A DNA stretch of 64,000 nt, from positions 2,302,001-2,366,000 of the forward strand of contig BPGD01000001.1 of assembly GCA_026002855.1 (NCBI GenBank), written 5' to 3'. Shown here in pieces: positions 58,785 through 64,000 of the stretch. Numbering within the stretch: the stretch's first letter is position 1; the number at the start of each line of letters is the position of its first letter. Origin of the DNA: Bryobacteraceae bacterium. Its GTDB lineage: Bacteria > Acidobacteriota > Terriglobia > Bryobacterales > Bryobacteraceae. Both the position numbers and the translations under genes were made by a program. Under the pieces are notes generated by a model. The model was given only the letters and a program-made list of their open reading frames with translations, was not told the DNA's origin and did no database searches.

Positions 58785-59213
58785 TTACTTCAGATCCATG
58801 TCTCCAAGCGCCGGGTCGCGCAGGTCCAGCCGCATCTCCTGCTGGCAGCACTGGCATTTACCCGGCGACCAGGCGCGGATGGAGCAGACGTCGCACCAAT
58901 ACGTGACCACCAGCCGTTTACCATTGCGCCAGACGAAGAGCGCGCGCTCGTGGATCGGATCGACCACAAACACATCCGGCGCGCGGTAATGGCCCACGGC
59001 TTCGAAATCTTCCTTTGCGAGCCGCGGGTCGCGCAGCACGGCCTCCGAAGGCGCGTCCCCTTCCAACACGACGGTGCGGCCCTCGCGGGTGATGATGGCG
59101 GGCGGGAGATGCTCGTCCTGACGCAGGCGGCCGCGTATGCTGTCCTTCCGGTCAGCGGCCGCGCGTGCCACCAGCGCAGCGGGCAGAAGGAGCAGGACTC
59201 GGCGCGAAATCAT
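58785..59213 (-). CDS. Secreted small Cys-rich protein coupled to the P-type ATPase gene
   Basis: This is a 142-residue protein with a signal peptide (SRRVLLLLPAALVARAAA, twin-arginine but otherwise Sec-like). The C-terminus holds a cysteine cluster: CDVCSIRAW then KCQCCQQEM, giving CxxC and CxCC in 20 residues. The middle part includes GRTVVLEGDAPSEAVLRD, resembling metal-related redox proteins but without a recognised family. The start at 59213 overlaps the ATPase stop (ATGA) with CGGAGAA upstream, so translation is coupled. I suggest periplasmic metal binding (inference). Confidence 0.78.
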   Translation of the reverse strand: MISRRVLLLLPAALVARAAADRKDSIRGRLRQDEHLPPAIITREGRTVVLEGDAPSEAVLRDPRLAKEDFEAVGHYRAPDVFVVDPIHERALFVWRNGKRLVVTYWCDVCSIRAWSPGKCQCCQQEMRLDLRDPALGDMDLK

Positions 59214-61255
59214 TTCTCCGGGATTGGATGCTCGGTGGGCCGAAGCAGTCGCAGCCCGTTCAGCGTCACCAGCAGCGTGGCGCCGGTGTCGGCGGCGACG
59301 GCCATCCACAGCGTGGCTCTGCCCGTGGCTGCTGCGGCGAGAAACGCGGCCTTGAGCGCCAGCGCGAGAACGATGTTCTGGCGGATCACGCGCAGAGCGC
59401 GTTTCGCGTGCGCAATGAGGAAGACCGTCTTTTCCAGGGGACTACCGGCCACGATCACGTCGGCGCTCTCCTGGGCCGCCTCGGCGGAAGGCGCGGCGAT
59501 GCTGATGCCCACGGTGGCGCGCCGTAGGGCCTCTGCGTCGGCCACGCAGTCGCCCAGCATCGCCACCTCGCCATGATCGCGCCGAAGCTTATCGACGAGA
59601 TGCGCCTTCTCTTCAGCGGAAAGCTCGGCGCGGAATTCGTCCAGGCCGGCCGCCTCGGCCGCGGCGCGCGCGGCGGGTTCCGGATCCGACGCCAGCAGCA
59701 CGAGCCGCTGGAGCCCCAGCCGGCGCAGCGCCTCCACGTGCTGGCGCGCACGGCTGAGCGGCGCGTCGCACCACGCCTCTATTGCCTCGCCCGCCGGCGG
59801 GACCGAGACCGTGCAGCCTTCGGCCGTCAGGGCTTCGATCCGTTCAGCCAGCGCCGGTTCAATTCCCCCTGCGCTGGCCCAGCGGGGCGTGAGTGGAATG
59901 CCGCCGCCTTCGCCGGCTCGCCAGCGCCGCCAGTTTCGCAGCGCCTCCTGCTCCTCCTTGCCTAACGCTTCGCGGTGCGCCAGGCGCGGCTCGCCCTGGG
60001 TGAGGATTCCGGACCGGTCCATCGCCAGGGCGCGGAGCCGCCCGGCCGCTTCGAGAAACGCGCCGCCCTTGATCAGGACGCCCTGCCGCGCCGCGCTCGC
60101 CAGCGCCGCCATCACCGTCACCGGCGTCGAAATCACGAAAGCGCACGGGCAGGCGATCAGCAGCACTACCATGCCGTGATACATCCACTCGCCCCAACTT
60201 CCCCGGCCGGCCAGCGGAGGTACCAGAGCCACGGAAAGCGCCAGCAGCAGCACGGCGGGCGTGTAGCGGCGTGCGAAGCGTTCCACCAGCCGGTCGCTTT
60301 CGGCGCGCCGTGCGCCGGAGACTTCCAACATGCGGAGCATGCGCTGAAGACGCGTGTCTCGTGCCGGCTTGCGTACCTCCACAAGCAGCGTGCCGCCCGT
60401 GTTCAGCGTGCCGGCAAAAACCTCGTCTCCGGCCCGCCTCGGCACCGGCACGGATTCGCCCGTCAGCGGCGCCTGGTCGACCAGCGCCTCGCCCTCCAGC
60501 ACAATGCCGTCGCAGGGAACACGCTCGCCGCTCCGCACGCGCACGCGGGCGCCGGGAGTCAGCGATTCCACATCCACGCGGTGCTCATGATCGCCGTGGA
60601 CCAGCGATGCCTGCGCCGGCATCAACTCCAGCAACCGCGCCACCGAGCGCCGCGCCCGCTCCAGACTCAGCGTCTCCAGCCGCCCGGCGAGCCCGTATAA
60701 AAAGACAAGCGTGGCGCCCTCGGCCCACTCGCCCAGCACGGCCGCGCCGGCTGCCGAAATCATCACAAGCAGATTCATGTCTGCCCGCAAGGCCCGCACT
60801 GCCGCCCAGGCCTTGCGCCAGAACAGCGCCGCACCGGCCGCCACCGAGGCAACATAGCAGGCCAGTGCCGGAAGGGGCACGGCATGAGCGCGGGCGCCGG
60901 CGTGCCCGTGCGCGAAGAGAACTTCGATCGCCTCTCCTCCGGGCCATGCCTCCAGCGCCAGCCCCAGGGCCAGCAGCACGCCACTGAGCCACAGTGCCCC
61001 ACGCTCCCATCCCAAGCCCCGTGCCGGGCGCGCCGCCTCTTCCCATCGCTGGCAGCGCATCCCAATACATTCCACGGCGGCGGCGATTTCGGCTTCACTC
61101 GTCAACTCCGGCGCGTAGGCGACCTCCATCAGCCCCCTGGCCACGTCGAAATGGAGCTCGCGCACGCCTTTCACGCGGCTCAGCGCCGCGCGCAGCAGCG
61201 AGACCTCCTCGCCGCAGTCCATGCCAAGGACACGAAAACGGGCGGCCTTGTTAAT
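59210..61255 (-). CDS. Degenerate heavy-metal (Zn/Cd/Co-type) P-type ATPase-like protein
   Basis: This is a P1B-type ATPase-like protein of 681 residues (if started at the ATT codon at 61255; 670 from ATG 61222). It has an HMA-like N-terminus (RFRVLGMDCGEEVSLL), the transmembrane CPC metal site in IACPCAFVIS and the actuator TGES in PLTGESVPVP. The phosphorylation motif, normally DKTGT, reads D-R-S-G-I. The TGD motif is A-S-D, GDGxND is G-D-C-V-A-D, and the HP of the nucleotide domain is absent, with that domain unusually short. The phosphorylatable Asp is kept, so residual or regulatory activity is possible. Flanked by a His-rich and a Cys-rich protein gene. Transport function is in doubt. 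Confidence 0.88.
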   Translation of the reverse strand: MNKAARFRVLGMDCGEEVSLLRAALSRVKGVRELHFDVARGLMEVAYAPELTSEAEIAAAVECIGMRCQRWEEAARPARGLGWERGALWLSGVLLALGLALEAWPGGEAIEVLFAHGHAGARAHAVPLPALACYVASVAAGAALFWRKAWAAVRALRADMNLLVMISAAGAAVLGEWAEGATLVFLYGLAGRLETLSLERARRSVARLLELMPAQASLVHGDHEHRVDVESLTPGARVRVRSGERVPCDGIVLEGEALVDQAPLTGESVPVPRRAGDEVFAGTLNTGGTLLVEVRKPARDTRLQRMLRMLEVSGARRAESDRLVERFARRYTPAVLLLALSVALVPPLAGRGSWGEWMYHGMVVLLIACPCAFVISTPVTVMAALASAARQGVLIKGGAFLEAAGRLRALAMDRSGILTQGEPRLAHREALGKEEQEALRNWRRWRAGEGGGIPLTPRWASAGGIEPALAERIEALTAEGCTVSVPPAGEAIEAWCDAPLSRARQHVEALRRLGLQRLVLLASDPEPAARAAAEAAGLDEFRAELSAEEKAHLVDKLRRDHGEVAMLGDCVADAEALRRATVGISIAAPSAEAAQESADVIVAGSPLEKTVFLIAHAKRALRVIRQNIVLALALKAAFLAAAATGRATLWMAVAADTGATLLVTLNGLRLLRPTEHPIPEK

Positions 61256-61272: not shown

Positions 61273-61320
61273 AACATTCTAGCCTTTTCCTGCCGATTCA
61301 GGTATGAAGAAGGATTGGCC

Positions 61321-61680
61321 ATGCCGCAACACCCGATTCATCCTCAACACGCGCACATCCACGGCGAAGGCTGCGGGCACGCGGCCATCCGTCACGGCGA
61401 CCACATCGATTACCTGCACGACGGCTGCCTGCACACGATGCACGGCGACCACGTGGACGAGTGCCGCATCGAGGTCTCCGCGCGGAATCCCGACGGCTGC
61501 GCGGCCGTGGCCGAGGGGCATCCCGATGGTCATCTGCACGGCGAAGGCTGCGGCCACGAGCGTGTGCCCCATGGGGATCACCTGGATTACCTCGTTGACG
61601 GGCGTCTTCATCACCCGCATGGCGACCACTGTGACGACCACGGGCCCGTCGAGGTGATCGCAGAGAGCGGCCGACGGTAA
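61321..61680 (+). CDS. Histidine-rich repeat metal-binding protein
   Basis: This is a 119-residue cytoplasmic protein with 23 His and 6 Cys. It consists of two copies (about residues 14-52 and 73-112) of a unit HGEGCGHxxxxHGDHxDYLxDGxLHxxHGDH ending near a Glu-Val. Such His-rich proteins sit beside zinc/cadmium/nickel transporters in many bacteria and are thought to buffer metal. Here the partner is the divergent degenerate ATPase. Start ATG 61321 with AAGGA 8 nt upstream. TTG 61315 is the alternative. No membrane segment or signal peptide. Confidence 0.85.
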   Translation: MPQHPIHPQHAHIHGEGCGHAAIRHGDHIDYLHDGCLHTMHGDHVDECRIEVSARNPDGCAAVAEGHPDGHLHGEGCGHERVPHGDHLDYLVDGRLHHPHGDHCDDHGPVEVIAESGRR

Positions 61681-61692
61681 GCGGGGCGCGGC

Positions 61693-62397
61693 ATGTCCAG
61701 CGAATGGCGTCCGGCGCGGGCGCGCGTCTTCGATCTGTGGCTGATTCCGCCGGGCCTGCCTCCGGCGCTGCTGGAGGACTTTGCGGACGCGGCGGGCCAG
61801 GGCGCGCGGATTTCGGACAGTACGACCGAAGACCATGCGCCAGAGCCGGGCGCGGCGATCCCCGTTGTAACCGGTGGGGCCGGGATTGAGGCGTCATCGG
61901 AGGTCTCAGGATGGAGAGCGGCCATCCTTCCGCTGGGCGATGCGCGTCCTGGCGTCGGAATCGAGGAAGACGGCCGGCTGTTGCCGCCCCAGCGGCTGCA
62001 CCCGGCCGAGCGGCGCCGGCTGGAACGGATGCCGCCTCAGGAGCGGGCGGCGGCGCGGCGGCTGCTGGGTGCGGCGAGAGGGGCGCTGGCGCAGGCGTTG
62101 GGCGTGCCGGCGGCCGGGGTGGCTGCTGTGGCCGATCTGTCGCCGCTGCTGGAGGGCGCGCAGTCGCTGCGCGCGGGCGCCTGGAGCGTGCAGCGCGTGC
62201 CCTCGCCGCCGGGAGTCTATGTGTTTGTCGCCGCGCCTGGCGCGCGCTGGGGCTATCGTCTGGCGGGCTGGCGGCTTGGGCGGGCCGCAGCGTCAGCGGC
62301 CCGGTTCGCGCAGACGGGCGGCGAAGGCGGCGCCGCGCCGGAAGCGCGGCCCGGCGGCGCCACGCTCGACTTCCCGGGCCAGCTCCTCGAGCGTTAG
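61693..62397 (+). CDS. Degenerate 4'-phosphopantetheinyl-transferase-like protein
   Basis: This is a 234-residue protein starting 12 nt after the His-rich gene. The shape resembles the PPTase superfamily: VFDLWLIPPGLPPALLEDF, GVGIEEDGRLLPPQRLHPAERRRLERMPP and a C-terminal beta-rich half (GVYVFVAAPGARWGYRLAGW). The catalytic WxxKEA segment is replaced by LLGAARGALAQALG, and the GxDxE motif is poor, so an active enzyme is unlikely. The match is weak and the gene could be an unrelated hypothetical. Its last 105 nt overlap tyrA on the other strand. Confidence 0.5.
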   Translation: MSSEWRPARARVFDLWLIPPGLPPALLEDFADAAGQGARISDSTTEDHAPEPGAAIPVVTGGAGIEASSEVSGWRAAILPLGDARPGVGIEEDGRLLPPQRLHPAERRRLERMPPQERAAARRLLGAARGALAQALGVPAAGVAAVADLSPLLEGAQSLRAGAWSVQRVPSPPGVYVFVAAPGARWGYRLAGWRLGRAAASAARFAQTGGEGGAAPEARPGGATLDFPGQLLER

Positions 62398-63138
62398 GCC
62401 GAAGCGGCGCAGCGCCGATACAATTTCGTCGCGGTTTGTTTCGAGAATGTCCTGCCAGATGTCCCAGCCGCTGAGGGCGAGCCGCGTCATGTCCAGCAGG
62501 CCGGGGCCGGCCGCGCCGGCGACGCTTTCCGCCTCACTGCACTCGCCGAGCGCGGCTGCCAGTGCGGTGGAGATCATCTGCGGCAGGTGGGAGCTGAGCG
62601 CGACGATGCGGTCGTGTTCCTCCGGAGTGACCACGCGCGGCTCGGCGCCGATCCGTTCCACCCAGGAAAGGAACGTGCGCGCCGCGGGCGTTTCCAGGTC
62701 TTCGCGCCGCGCCGGCGCAAGCAGGTACGGGCGGCCGCGGAACAGGTCCGCGTCGGCCTCTTCCACGCCCCGCTTCTCCTTGCCCGCCATCGGATGTCCG
62801 CCGAGAAACAGCGCGCCGCGCAGATTGCGTCCCGCATCGCAGATGCGCCGCTTGGTGCTGCCGGCGTCGGTGACGAGGGCGCCCGTGCGCGTGCGGCCGT
62901 CGAGTTTCGGGATGGCGTCGAGAATGGCGCGGATCGGGCCGGCCAGATAAATCAGGTCGGCGCGCGCGGCGGCGTCTTCGAATTCCGCGCCCGCGTCGAT
63001 GGCGCCGCGTCTGACCGCGGCAGCGATCGTGCGCGGAGAGCTGACGCCGAGGATGCGGCCGCCAAATCCCGCCTTCCGGAGCGCCAGGCCGAAAGAGCCG
63101 CCAATGAGGCCCACGCCAATAATGGCCACGGTTTCCAT
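62293..63138 (-). CDS. tyrA: Prephenate dehydrogenase
   Basis: This is a 281-residue NAD-dependent enzyme converting prephenate to 4-hydroxyphenylpyruvate in tyrosine synthesis. It has the NAD-binding motif AIIGVGLIGGSFGLAL, LIYLAGPIRAILDAI, VTDAGSTKRRI, the catalytic His region LGGHPMAGKEKRGVEEADADLF, and VALSSHLPQMISTALA. No ACT or chorismate mutase domain is fused. Start at ATG 63138; an in-frame extension upstream is non-homologous. It lies 7 nt after the DAHP-synthase-like gene. Its 3' end overlaps the PPTase-like gene. Confidence 0.92.
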   Translation of the reverse strand: METVAIIGVGLIGGSFGLALRKAGFGGRILGVSSPRTIAAAVRRGAIDAGAEFEDAAARADLIYLAGPIRAILDAIPKLDGRTRTGALVTDAGSTKRRICDAGRNLRGALFLGGHPMAGKEKRGVEEADADLFRGRPYLLAPARREDLETPAARTFLSWVERIGAEPRVVTPEEHDRIVALSSHLPQMISTALAAALGECSEAESVAGAAGPGLLDMTRLALSGWDIWQDILETNRDEIVSALRRFGLTLEELAREVERGAAGPRFRRGAAFAARLREPGR

Positions 63139-63145
63139 GGCCGTT

Positions 63146-64000
63146 CTAGAAACTCCTTCCCAGCGCCGCGGCGACGGCGCGCAATTGCCGGGCGAGCTCC
63201 AGGAATTGCCGCGGCTCCAGCGACTGGGCGCCTTCGGCGAGGACCTTCGACGGATCGGGGTGAACGTCGACCAGCAGGCCGTCGGCCCCGGCGGCGAGCG
63301 AAGCCAGCGCGAGCGAAGGCGCCATGTCACGCCGGCCCGCGGCGCGGCAGGGATCGGCCATCACCGGCAGGTGCGAGAGCTTGTGCAACGCGGGGATCGC
63401 GGTGACGTCCAGCGTGTTCTTCGTGTAGGAACCGTACGTGCGCACGCCGCGCTCGCAGACGATCACGTCCGGGTTGCCGGCGTCGAGGATCATGTCGGCG
63501 CTGACGAGCAGCTCCTGGAGCGTGGCCGCCGGCGAGCGCTTCAGCAATACCGGCCTGCGGGCGCGGCCGGCGGCGCGCAGCAGCGGATAGTTCTGCATGT
63601 TGCGCGAGCCGATGAGCAGCACGTCGGCGTGCTCTTCCACCAGCGCGACGGCGCCAGCTTCGGCGATCTCGCCGACGAGGAACATGCCGAAGGTTTCGGC
63701 GGCGCGCTTCATCAGCCGCAGCGATTCGGCGTCCGGCCCCGCAAGGCTCGCGGGCGAAAGATGCGCGCGGAGGCTGCCGGCGCGGAACAGCCGCGCGCCC
63801 CCGCGCGCGGCCAGCTCGGCGCAGCGGAACAACTGCTCTTCGCCTTCCACGCTGCCGGGCCCGGCCAGCAACACTACGCGCGGCCCGCCGATTTCGACCT
63901 CGTCGGTTCGCTCGCCGGCGAGGCGGATGCGCGTGCCTTCCGGGCGGGCCGCCCGTGCCGCGCGCTGATACGGCGTCATCACGCGGTAGCATTCCATCAC
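63146..64000 (-). CDS. DAHP-synthase-like (AroF type I-beta) protein, all metal ligands substituted (partial, N-terminus outside window)
   Basis: The fold is that of 3-deoxy-7-phosphoheptulonate synthase, the first step of the shikimate pathway. Matching parts are VLLAGPGSVEGEEQLF, LLIGSRNMQNYPLLR, RPVLLKRSPAAT, VIVCERGVRTYGSYTKNT and LSHLPVMADP. The visible 285 codons begin in the linker after the ferredoxin-like regulatory domain, so the gene continues past 64000. Four metal-binding positions are changed: Cys to Gly (63854-63856), His to Arg (63344-63346), Glu to Asp (63266-63268), Asp to Glu (63233-63235). The FKPRTSPYSF loop is LRAHLSPASL. Activity as a normal DAHP synthase is doubtful. 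It is cotranscribed with tyrA. Confidence 0.85.
   Translation of the reverse strand: MMECYRVMTPYQRAARAARPEGTRIRLAGERTDEVEIGGPRVVLLAGPGSVEGEEQLFRCAELAARGGARLFRAGSLRAHLSPASLAGPDAESLRLMKRAAETFGMFLVGEIAEAGAVALVEEHADVLLIGSRNMQNYPLLRAAGRARRPVLLKRSPAATLQELLVSADMILDAGNPDVIVCERGVRTYGSYTKNTLDVTAIPALHKLSHLPVMADPCRAAGRRDMAPSLALASLAAGADGLLVDVHPDPSKVLAEGAQSLEPRQFLELARQLRAVAAALGRSF

Follow-up and report, generated by a model that had tools for sequence, protein, structure and literature searches.

A degenerate DAHP synthase as a putative regulator of later steps of its own aromatic pathway in a group of acidobacteria

RESULTS

The locus and its genes

The window, i.e., the whole stretch of 64,000 nucleotides from a Bryobacteraceae bacterium that was analyzed here (contig BPGD01000001.1, positions 2,302,001 to 2,366,000), ends inside a minus-strand gene for a homologue of DAHP synthase (DAHPS), here designated aroF*. 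The full gene comprises 342 codons and occupies positions 2365146-2366174 of the single contig of 4,437,915 bases that constitutes the genome; the start codon at position 2366174 and the first 174 nt are located beyond the end of the window. The relevant features are as follows (window coordinates).

62293..63138, minus strand: tyrA, prephenate dehydrogenase, 281 aa, beginning 7 nt past the aroF* stop
63146..64000, minus strand: aroF* (pseudo-DAHP synthase gene), C-terminal 284 codons and stop, residues 59-342
63233..63235, minus strand: Glu314 (GAA) in place of the metal ligand Asp309 of the Thermotoga DAHPS
63266..63268, minus strand: Asp303 (GAC) in place of the metal ligand Glu298
63344..63346, minus strand: Arg277 (CGC) in place of the metal ligand His272
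63758..63769, minus strand: RAHL, residues 136-139, in place of the Thermotoga KPRT substrate loop (131-134)
63854..63856, minus strand: Gly107 (GGC) in place of the metal ligand Cys102

The N terminus of the aroF* protein matches the ferredoxin-like regulatory domain PF18152 (residues 1-66, 67.9 bits), and its barrel matches the DAHP synthase family PF00793 (residues 93-333, 160.9 bits; cut-off, 25.5). The nearest solved relatives in both sequence and fold are the DAHPS of Thermotoga maritima (1rzm; 39% identity) and a chimera of that enzyme, and by its full-length similarity the protein is a homologue of type I-beta DAHP synthases. It also exceeds the cut-offs of the NCBIfam models NF006421 (345.7; cut-off, 335) and TIGR01361 (268.6; cut-off, 267.75), so that automatic annotation would label it a DAHP synthase. 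The AlphaFold2 model has a mean pLDDT of 88, and the order of strands and helices in its N-terminal domain (N domain) is that of an intact control (L020). The possibility that the substrate loop is unusually disordered was considered and rejected: the pLDDT of residues 137-143 falls below 50, but the intact control is equally weak at residues 134-137, and the low values are therefore uninformative.

Elsewhere in the window, a 121-aa His/Cys-rich open reading frame (61315-61680, plus strand), composed by eye of two similar halves (HGEGCGH...HGDHxD) and lacking a Pfam match at an E value of 0.01, adjoins a gene for a heavy-metal P1B-type ATPase (59210-61222, minus strand) and possibly encodes a metal-binding partner of this pump.

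Loss of the catalytic site

None of the four residues of the Cys/His/Glu/Asp metal site is kept in the aroF* protein (0/4), which has Gly, Arg, Asp, and Glu instead. Alignment with the Thermotoga DAHPS (C107G, H277R, E303D, and D314E) thus confirmed the central claim of an earlier note on this DNA, that all four ligands are substituted. Also correct was its statement that the ligand spacings of 170, 26, and 11 residues speak against a misalignment, since they are the same in the Thermotoga enzyme without any gap between the four positions, and the LLKR and RGVRT segments that it reported as kept are indeed present (the latter as ERGxRT). The note overlooked the loss of the substrate loop: the KPR[TS] motif for PEP and E4P is absent and RAHL is found in its place. 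A sequencing error, which the note had named as a possible refutation, was ruled out, as G/R/D/E and RAHL recur in all five genomes of the genus that were examined (82-92% identity). With five assemblies from different species in agreement and an alignment that is ungapped between the ligands, error or misalignment was rejected as a practically negligible explanation.

According to the sections of PMC6362186 considered here, the type I-beta enzyme Aro1A binds its metal via C36, H206, E232, and D243, PEP via R60, K65, S119, R120, K141, and R171, and E4P likely via R67, T68, and D243; every reported DAHPS is described there as a metalloenzyme. When these residues were mapped onto the aroF* protein by a constant offset, the E4P positions R67, T68, and D243 proved to be His, Leu, and Glu, and five PEP positions were kept (R60, S119, R120, K141, and R171 as R131, S190, R191, K212, and R242), the sixth, K65, being replaced by Arg. 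By this mapping, neither the metal site nor the site of E4P, the second substrate, is left, and most of the PEP site is present. Judged from these substitutions, a loss of catalysis in the aroF* protein is well supported. The retention of R131, R191, K212, and R242 within the genus makes it possible that the barrel still binds a ligand or even remains catalytic.

A clade of degenerate copies

All nine genomes examined of a related genus encode copies with 55-64% identity to the aroF* protein that are degraded differently and partly, with the ligand sets C/H/D/E (one copy), P/H/D/D (three), G/H/D/E (two), S/R/E/E (two), and a truncated G/H (one). Across the 14 copies of both genera, Cys is kept in 1/14, His in 7/14, Glu in 2/13, Asp in 3/13, and the loop Lys in 0/14; one copy (L047) ends at residue 293, so Glu and Asp were counted over 13, and it was left out of the pairwise-identity comparison below. 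A comparison set of 22 related copies that do not belong to the clade (21 encoded in the same family and 1 in another) has His, Glu, Asp, and the loop Lys in 22/22 each and Cys in 21/22, i.e., 21 copies show C/H/E/D and all 22 show KPR[TS]. A further 40 copies of the class among the matches listed, taken from the upper part with some entries skipped and not a random sample, have C/H/E/D and KPR[TS] throughout (40/40). Judged by these counts, the substitutions fall outside the usual range of variation within the family. Among additional loci, one lacked a frame (L142), two were cut (L106 and L134), and one, with Pro and His at the last two ligands beyond the matched part, was left uncounted (L136); loci from database records partly duplicate genomes already counted and were kept out of the counts. 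The named records bearing the closest relatives are Bryobacteraceae, Bryobacterales, Acidobacteria, and Paludibaculum. A contig with a pseudo-DAHPS at 82% identity is also found in a record titled "Arcobacter sp." (L099; DYJN01000002.1), a name that is probably wrong given the presence of this gene.

The 14 degenerate copies group together as one clade that lies within the intact enzymes, with a support of 98/94 (bootstrap/SH-aLRT) when 46 active-site positions were omitted. The first tree gave the same clade (100/97) with a bootstrap that was unsettled, a warning that did not recur in the second tree. Manual inspection of the tree indicates three or more losses of Cys (to Pro, Ser, and Gly), two or more changes of His to Arg, a single change of Asp314, and for Glu303 either two or more changes or a change followed by a reversion. 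Because the loop Lys alone is changed in 14/14 copies, it was probably lost first, followed by erosion of the metal site. One copy (L017) retains both Cys and His, and by the metal site alone the clade is not uniformly dead. Outside the clade, the lone exception among the 22 related copies (L033; G043:C6:4949-5953) is a type I-beta DAHPS with a single Cys-to-Ser change in the metal site and all other ligands and the loop intact, encoded in a genome that also has a type II DAHPS; it may represent an early, separate loss.

The operon of trpA, chorismate mutase, aroF*, and tyrA

In the window genome, trpA, a gene for a chorismate mutase of 100 aa, and aroF* overlap successively as ATGA, and the 4-nt overlap of mutase and aroF* genes is found in 14/14 clade genomes. 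The gene trpA is located upstream in 14/14 clade genomes and tyrA downstream in 13/14, the contig ending in the last one. Each clade genome has one match to the chorismate mutase family PF01817, directly upstream of aroF*, and over the 20 genomes tested a single match was obtained in 19 and two in one (G043), every genome having one that adjoins the DAHPS gene. An additional AroH-type mutase was ruled out for the clade, as PF07736 had no match in any of the 14 genomes. The top four PDB matches of the mutase are each to the mutase domain of a DAHPS-mutase protein (2d8d, 5gmu, 5j6f, and 3nvt). In the tyrA product, only the two core domains were found, with no match to an ACT domain at an E value of 0.001. 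A prephenate dehydratase gene occurs at one location per genome (14/14), which in the window genome is away from the operon.

Intact relatives share this arrangement: they have the order mutase-aroF-tyrA, trpA in 19/22 and tyrA in 20/22 cases within the available bases, and the ATGA overlap in 4 of the 20 copies for which a mutase was found, including the three nearest. Among the matches listed, the overlap was seen in 1/26 more distant relatives (mutase located by motif within 300 bases). The ATGA overlap was accordingly dismissed as a distinguishing feature of the degenerate copies; it predates the loss, and the synteny was inherited rather than having arisen with it.

Selection on the regulatory domain and the barrel

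Based on the five genomes of the genus (Nei-Gojobori), the median dN/dS of aroF* as a whole is 0.154, with residues 1-68 at 0.038 and the barrel at 0.169; the neighboring genes trpA, tyrA, and mutase have values of 0.114, 0.226, and 0.125. Synonymous divergence is similar in N domain and barrel (0.57 and 0.64), which places the conservation of the N domain at the protein level. This 68-residue domain is 97% alike within the genus, and its identity exceeds that of the barrel in 78/78 pairs of 13 degenerate copies versus 36/231 pairs among the 22 others. When the tree was fixed, the share of the degenerate clade relative to the remaining tree length is 0.19 for the N domain and 0.75 for the barrel, a median speeding-up of the barrel relative to the N domain of 4.1-fold (2.7-7.2 in 95% of 60 site resamplings), which reaches 9.9-fold (4.3-50) for the genus alone. 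Of the columns that are invariant in the 22 others, 1/12 in the N domain and 40/87 in the barrel are changed in any degenerate copy. In terms of sequence conservation, the barrel is under weaker constraint than the N domain, whereas intact relatives show the opposite.

Full-length open frames are present in all 13 copies that are not cut by a contig end. With its lost catalytic residues and a dN/dS well below 1, aroF* has the sequence features of a pseudoenzyme gene. His29 and Ser31, which we take to contact tyrosine in the Thermotoga enzyme, are present in 14/14 clade copies; in the intact class copies among the matches listed, His29 occurs in 40/40 and Ser31 in 36/40 (Thr or Val in four). 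We infer from these residues that the N domain binds tyrosine, but its constraint could also serve oligomer formation only.

Other DAHP synthases in the same genomes

The earlier note had advised looking for a canonical DAHPS elsewhere in the genome, and two were found, namely, a type I-alpha and a type II enzyme with all ligands and loop residues present; a KDO8P synthase is also encoded. A type II DAHPS with C/H/E/D is present in 14/14 clade genomes and an intact type I-alpha enzyme in nine (9/9 intact), the remaining five having a second type I-beta copy with C/H/E/D and KPRT. With this set of isozymes, the aroF* protein would not be needed for DAHP supply. A hetero-oligomer with an active I-beta paralogue was rejected for the genus of the window, whose genomes contain a single copy each at an E value of 1e-20 (5/5), and is possible for the related genus, in the five genomes with a second copy.

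DISCUSSION

Overall, the loss of the catalytic site in combination with the preferential conservation of the regulatory part suggests that a dead enzyme now regulates later steps of the same aromatic pathway in a group of acidobacteria. Since the protein scores above the DAHPS cut-offs of two NCBIfam models, pathway reconstructions would probably count it as an active enzyme. The clade lost its metal site in graded steps, with the regulatory domain kept and tightened, and would represent a natural experiment on the conversion of an allosteric enzyme into a pure regulator, with a graded series of intermediates that is testable in vitro protein by protein.

The explanation that we favor, and to which we give even chances, is a DAHPS pseudoenzyme that is kept as the tyrosine-responsive partner of chorismate mutase, and perhaps also of TyrA; in this proposal, the identity of the partner and the response to tyrosine are inferences. 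In the simplest account, a type I-beta DAHP synthase would have lost its chemistry and been retained as a regulatory subunit, the intact ancestor having already worked with the mutase and other DAHP synthases having taken over DAHP supply. The protein may bind the separate chorismate mutase via its barrel, like the DAHPS domain in DAHPS-mutase fusions, and tyrosine bound between the N-terminal domains, where His29 and Ser31 are kept, may tune the mutase and possibly TyrA. The point of feedback by tyrosine would thereby have shifted from the entry of the pathway to the branch point at chorismate. Precedents for such a dependence of the mutase are given in the relevant parts of two studies: separating the domains of the DAH7PS-CM protein of Porphyromonas gingivalis raises the Km of the mutase for chorismate from 19 to 207 µM (PMC12202928), and in Mycobacterium tuberculosis the DAHPS is required for a more than 100-fold activation of the mutase and for its feedback control by Tyr/Phe, which weakens along with mutase-DAHPS binding (PMC4281200). 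The mutase of the operon is ordinary in appearance and could perhaps function on its own. Extended to the whole lineage, the proposal is more tentative and falls a little short of even chances: the operon DAHPS would be a dedicated allosteric subunit, tyrosine on the dead DAHPS would control the sole chorismate mutase and perhaps TyrA, feedback would have moved to the branch point, and the graded states C/H/D/E, P/H/D/D, S/R/E/E, G/H/D/E, and G/R/D/E would survive in living species.

The earlier note had offered a pseudoenzyme regulating tyrA, of which the pseudoenzyme part is supported, with the overlapping chorismate mutase as a likelier partner than TyrA alone. A tyrosine sensor for TyrA alone, or a free sensor with no fixed partner, would fit the start of tyrA just 7 nt past the aroF* stop, the lack of an ACT domain match in its product, and the conserved N domain, but TyrA is not known to us to have a DAHPS as partner. 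The mutase gene lies even nearer, and it is mutases that have DAHPS partners in the cited parts of PMC12202928 and PMC4281200, so that this reading appears unlikely, if still worth considering. A decaying pseudogene retained only by its operon position would explain the accelerated barrel and is hardly credible in view of the uninterrupted frames, a dN/dS between those of trpA and tyrA, and the nearly uniform N domain.

Two further readings assume that the barrel still performs a reaction. For the genus, a different, metal-free, PEP-using reaction, which the earlier note had also raised, draws on the four PEP residues kept in 5/5 genomes and a barrel dN/dS that is still 0.17; the case is weak for the clade, where R191 is lost in 4/14 and K212 in 1/14 copies. 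The Lys and Arg of the loop are gone as well, and the replacement of Cys by Pro, Ser, and Gly in separate branches looks like relaxed constraint and not like a new active site, so that we regard such a reaction as improbable. The metal-independent enzyme envisaged in the same note fares worse. KDO8P synthases, including engineered nonmetal forms, follow directly behind DAHPS among the nearest solved proteins, but in metal-independent KDO8P synthases Cys is changed and the other ligands (His, Glu, and Asp) and the loop Lys are retained. In the aroF* protein, all four ligands and the KPRT loop are lost, the loop Lys is absent from all 14 copies, and intact isozymes occur in 14/14 genomes. Together with the description of every reported DAHPS as a metalloenzyme in PMC6362186, this renders a metal-independent DAHP synthase very improbable.

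Comparison with known systems

The closest known counterpart is the type I-beta DAHPS of T. maritima (1rzm/3pg9), which is homologous over the full length, has the same domains (PF18152 and PF00793), is the best fold match, and ranks second in sequence behind the chimera of that enzyme. His29, Ser31, and its PEP residues R126, R186, K207, and R237 are kept in the aroF* protein. In contrast to the Thermotoga enzyme, the latter lacks the four metal ligands and the KPRT loop, and its barrel is less constrained than its regulatory domain. The barrel is also related to that of metal-independent KDO8P synthase, with which the protein shares the replaced Cys; unlike that enzyme, in which only Cys is changed, it has lost His, Glu, Asp, and the loop Lys as well.

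The locus resembles the DAHPS-mutase fusions of Bacillus subtilis, Geobacillus, Listeria, and P. gingivalis, to whose mutase domains the neighboring mutase is closest and whose linkage is mirrored by the adjacent, overlapping genes. It differs from them in that the aroF* protein and the mutase are separate polypeptides and the DAHPS part lacks the catalytic residues. The DAHPS partner of the AroQ-delta mutase in M. tuberculosis is of type II and, unlike the presumably inactive aroF* protein, active. It acts noncovalently on a separate mutase, both as its activator and as its feedback sensor (PMC4281200), which is the likeness proposed here. The mutase of the window genome lacks the C-terminal Arg-Gly dyad that the same study describes as invariant in AroQ-delta.

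A search of the open-access literature for a DAHPS pseudoenzyme or a metal-independent DAHPS returned no paper, the sole passage on metal independence concerning another enzyme. Related cases are mentioned in the portion of PMC1173090 considered here, i.e., an aroA-I-beta pseudogene fused to the AroQ-PheA of Shewanella and degraded AroQ domains on the TyrA proteins of Nostoc and Anabaena. As proposed for the locus described here, inactive remnants of DAHPS or mutase are associated with pathway partners. Unlike these fusions, which are treated there in short notes, the aroF* product is a full-length, free protein under purifying selection, and its eroded site recurs in 14 genomes.
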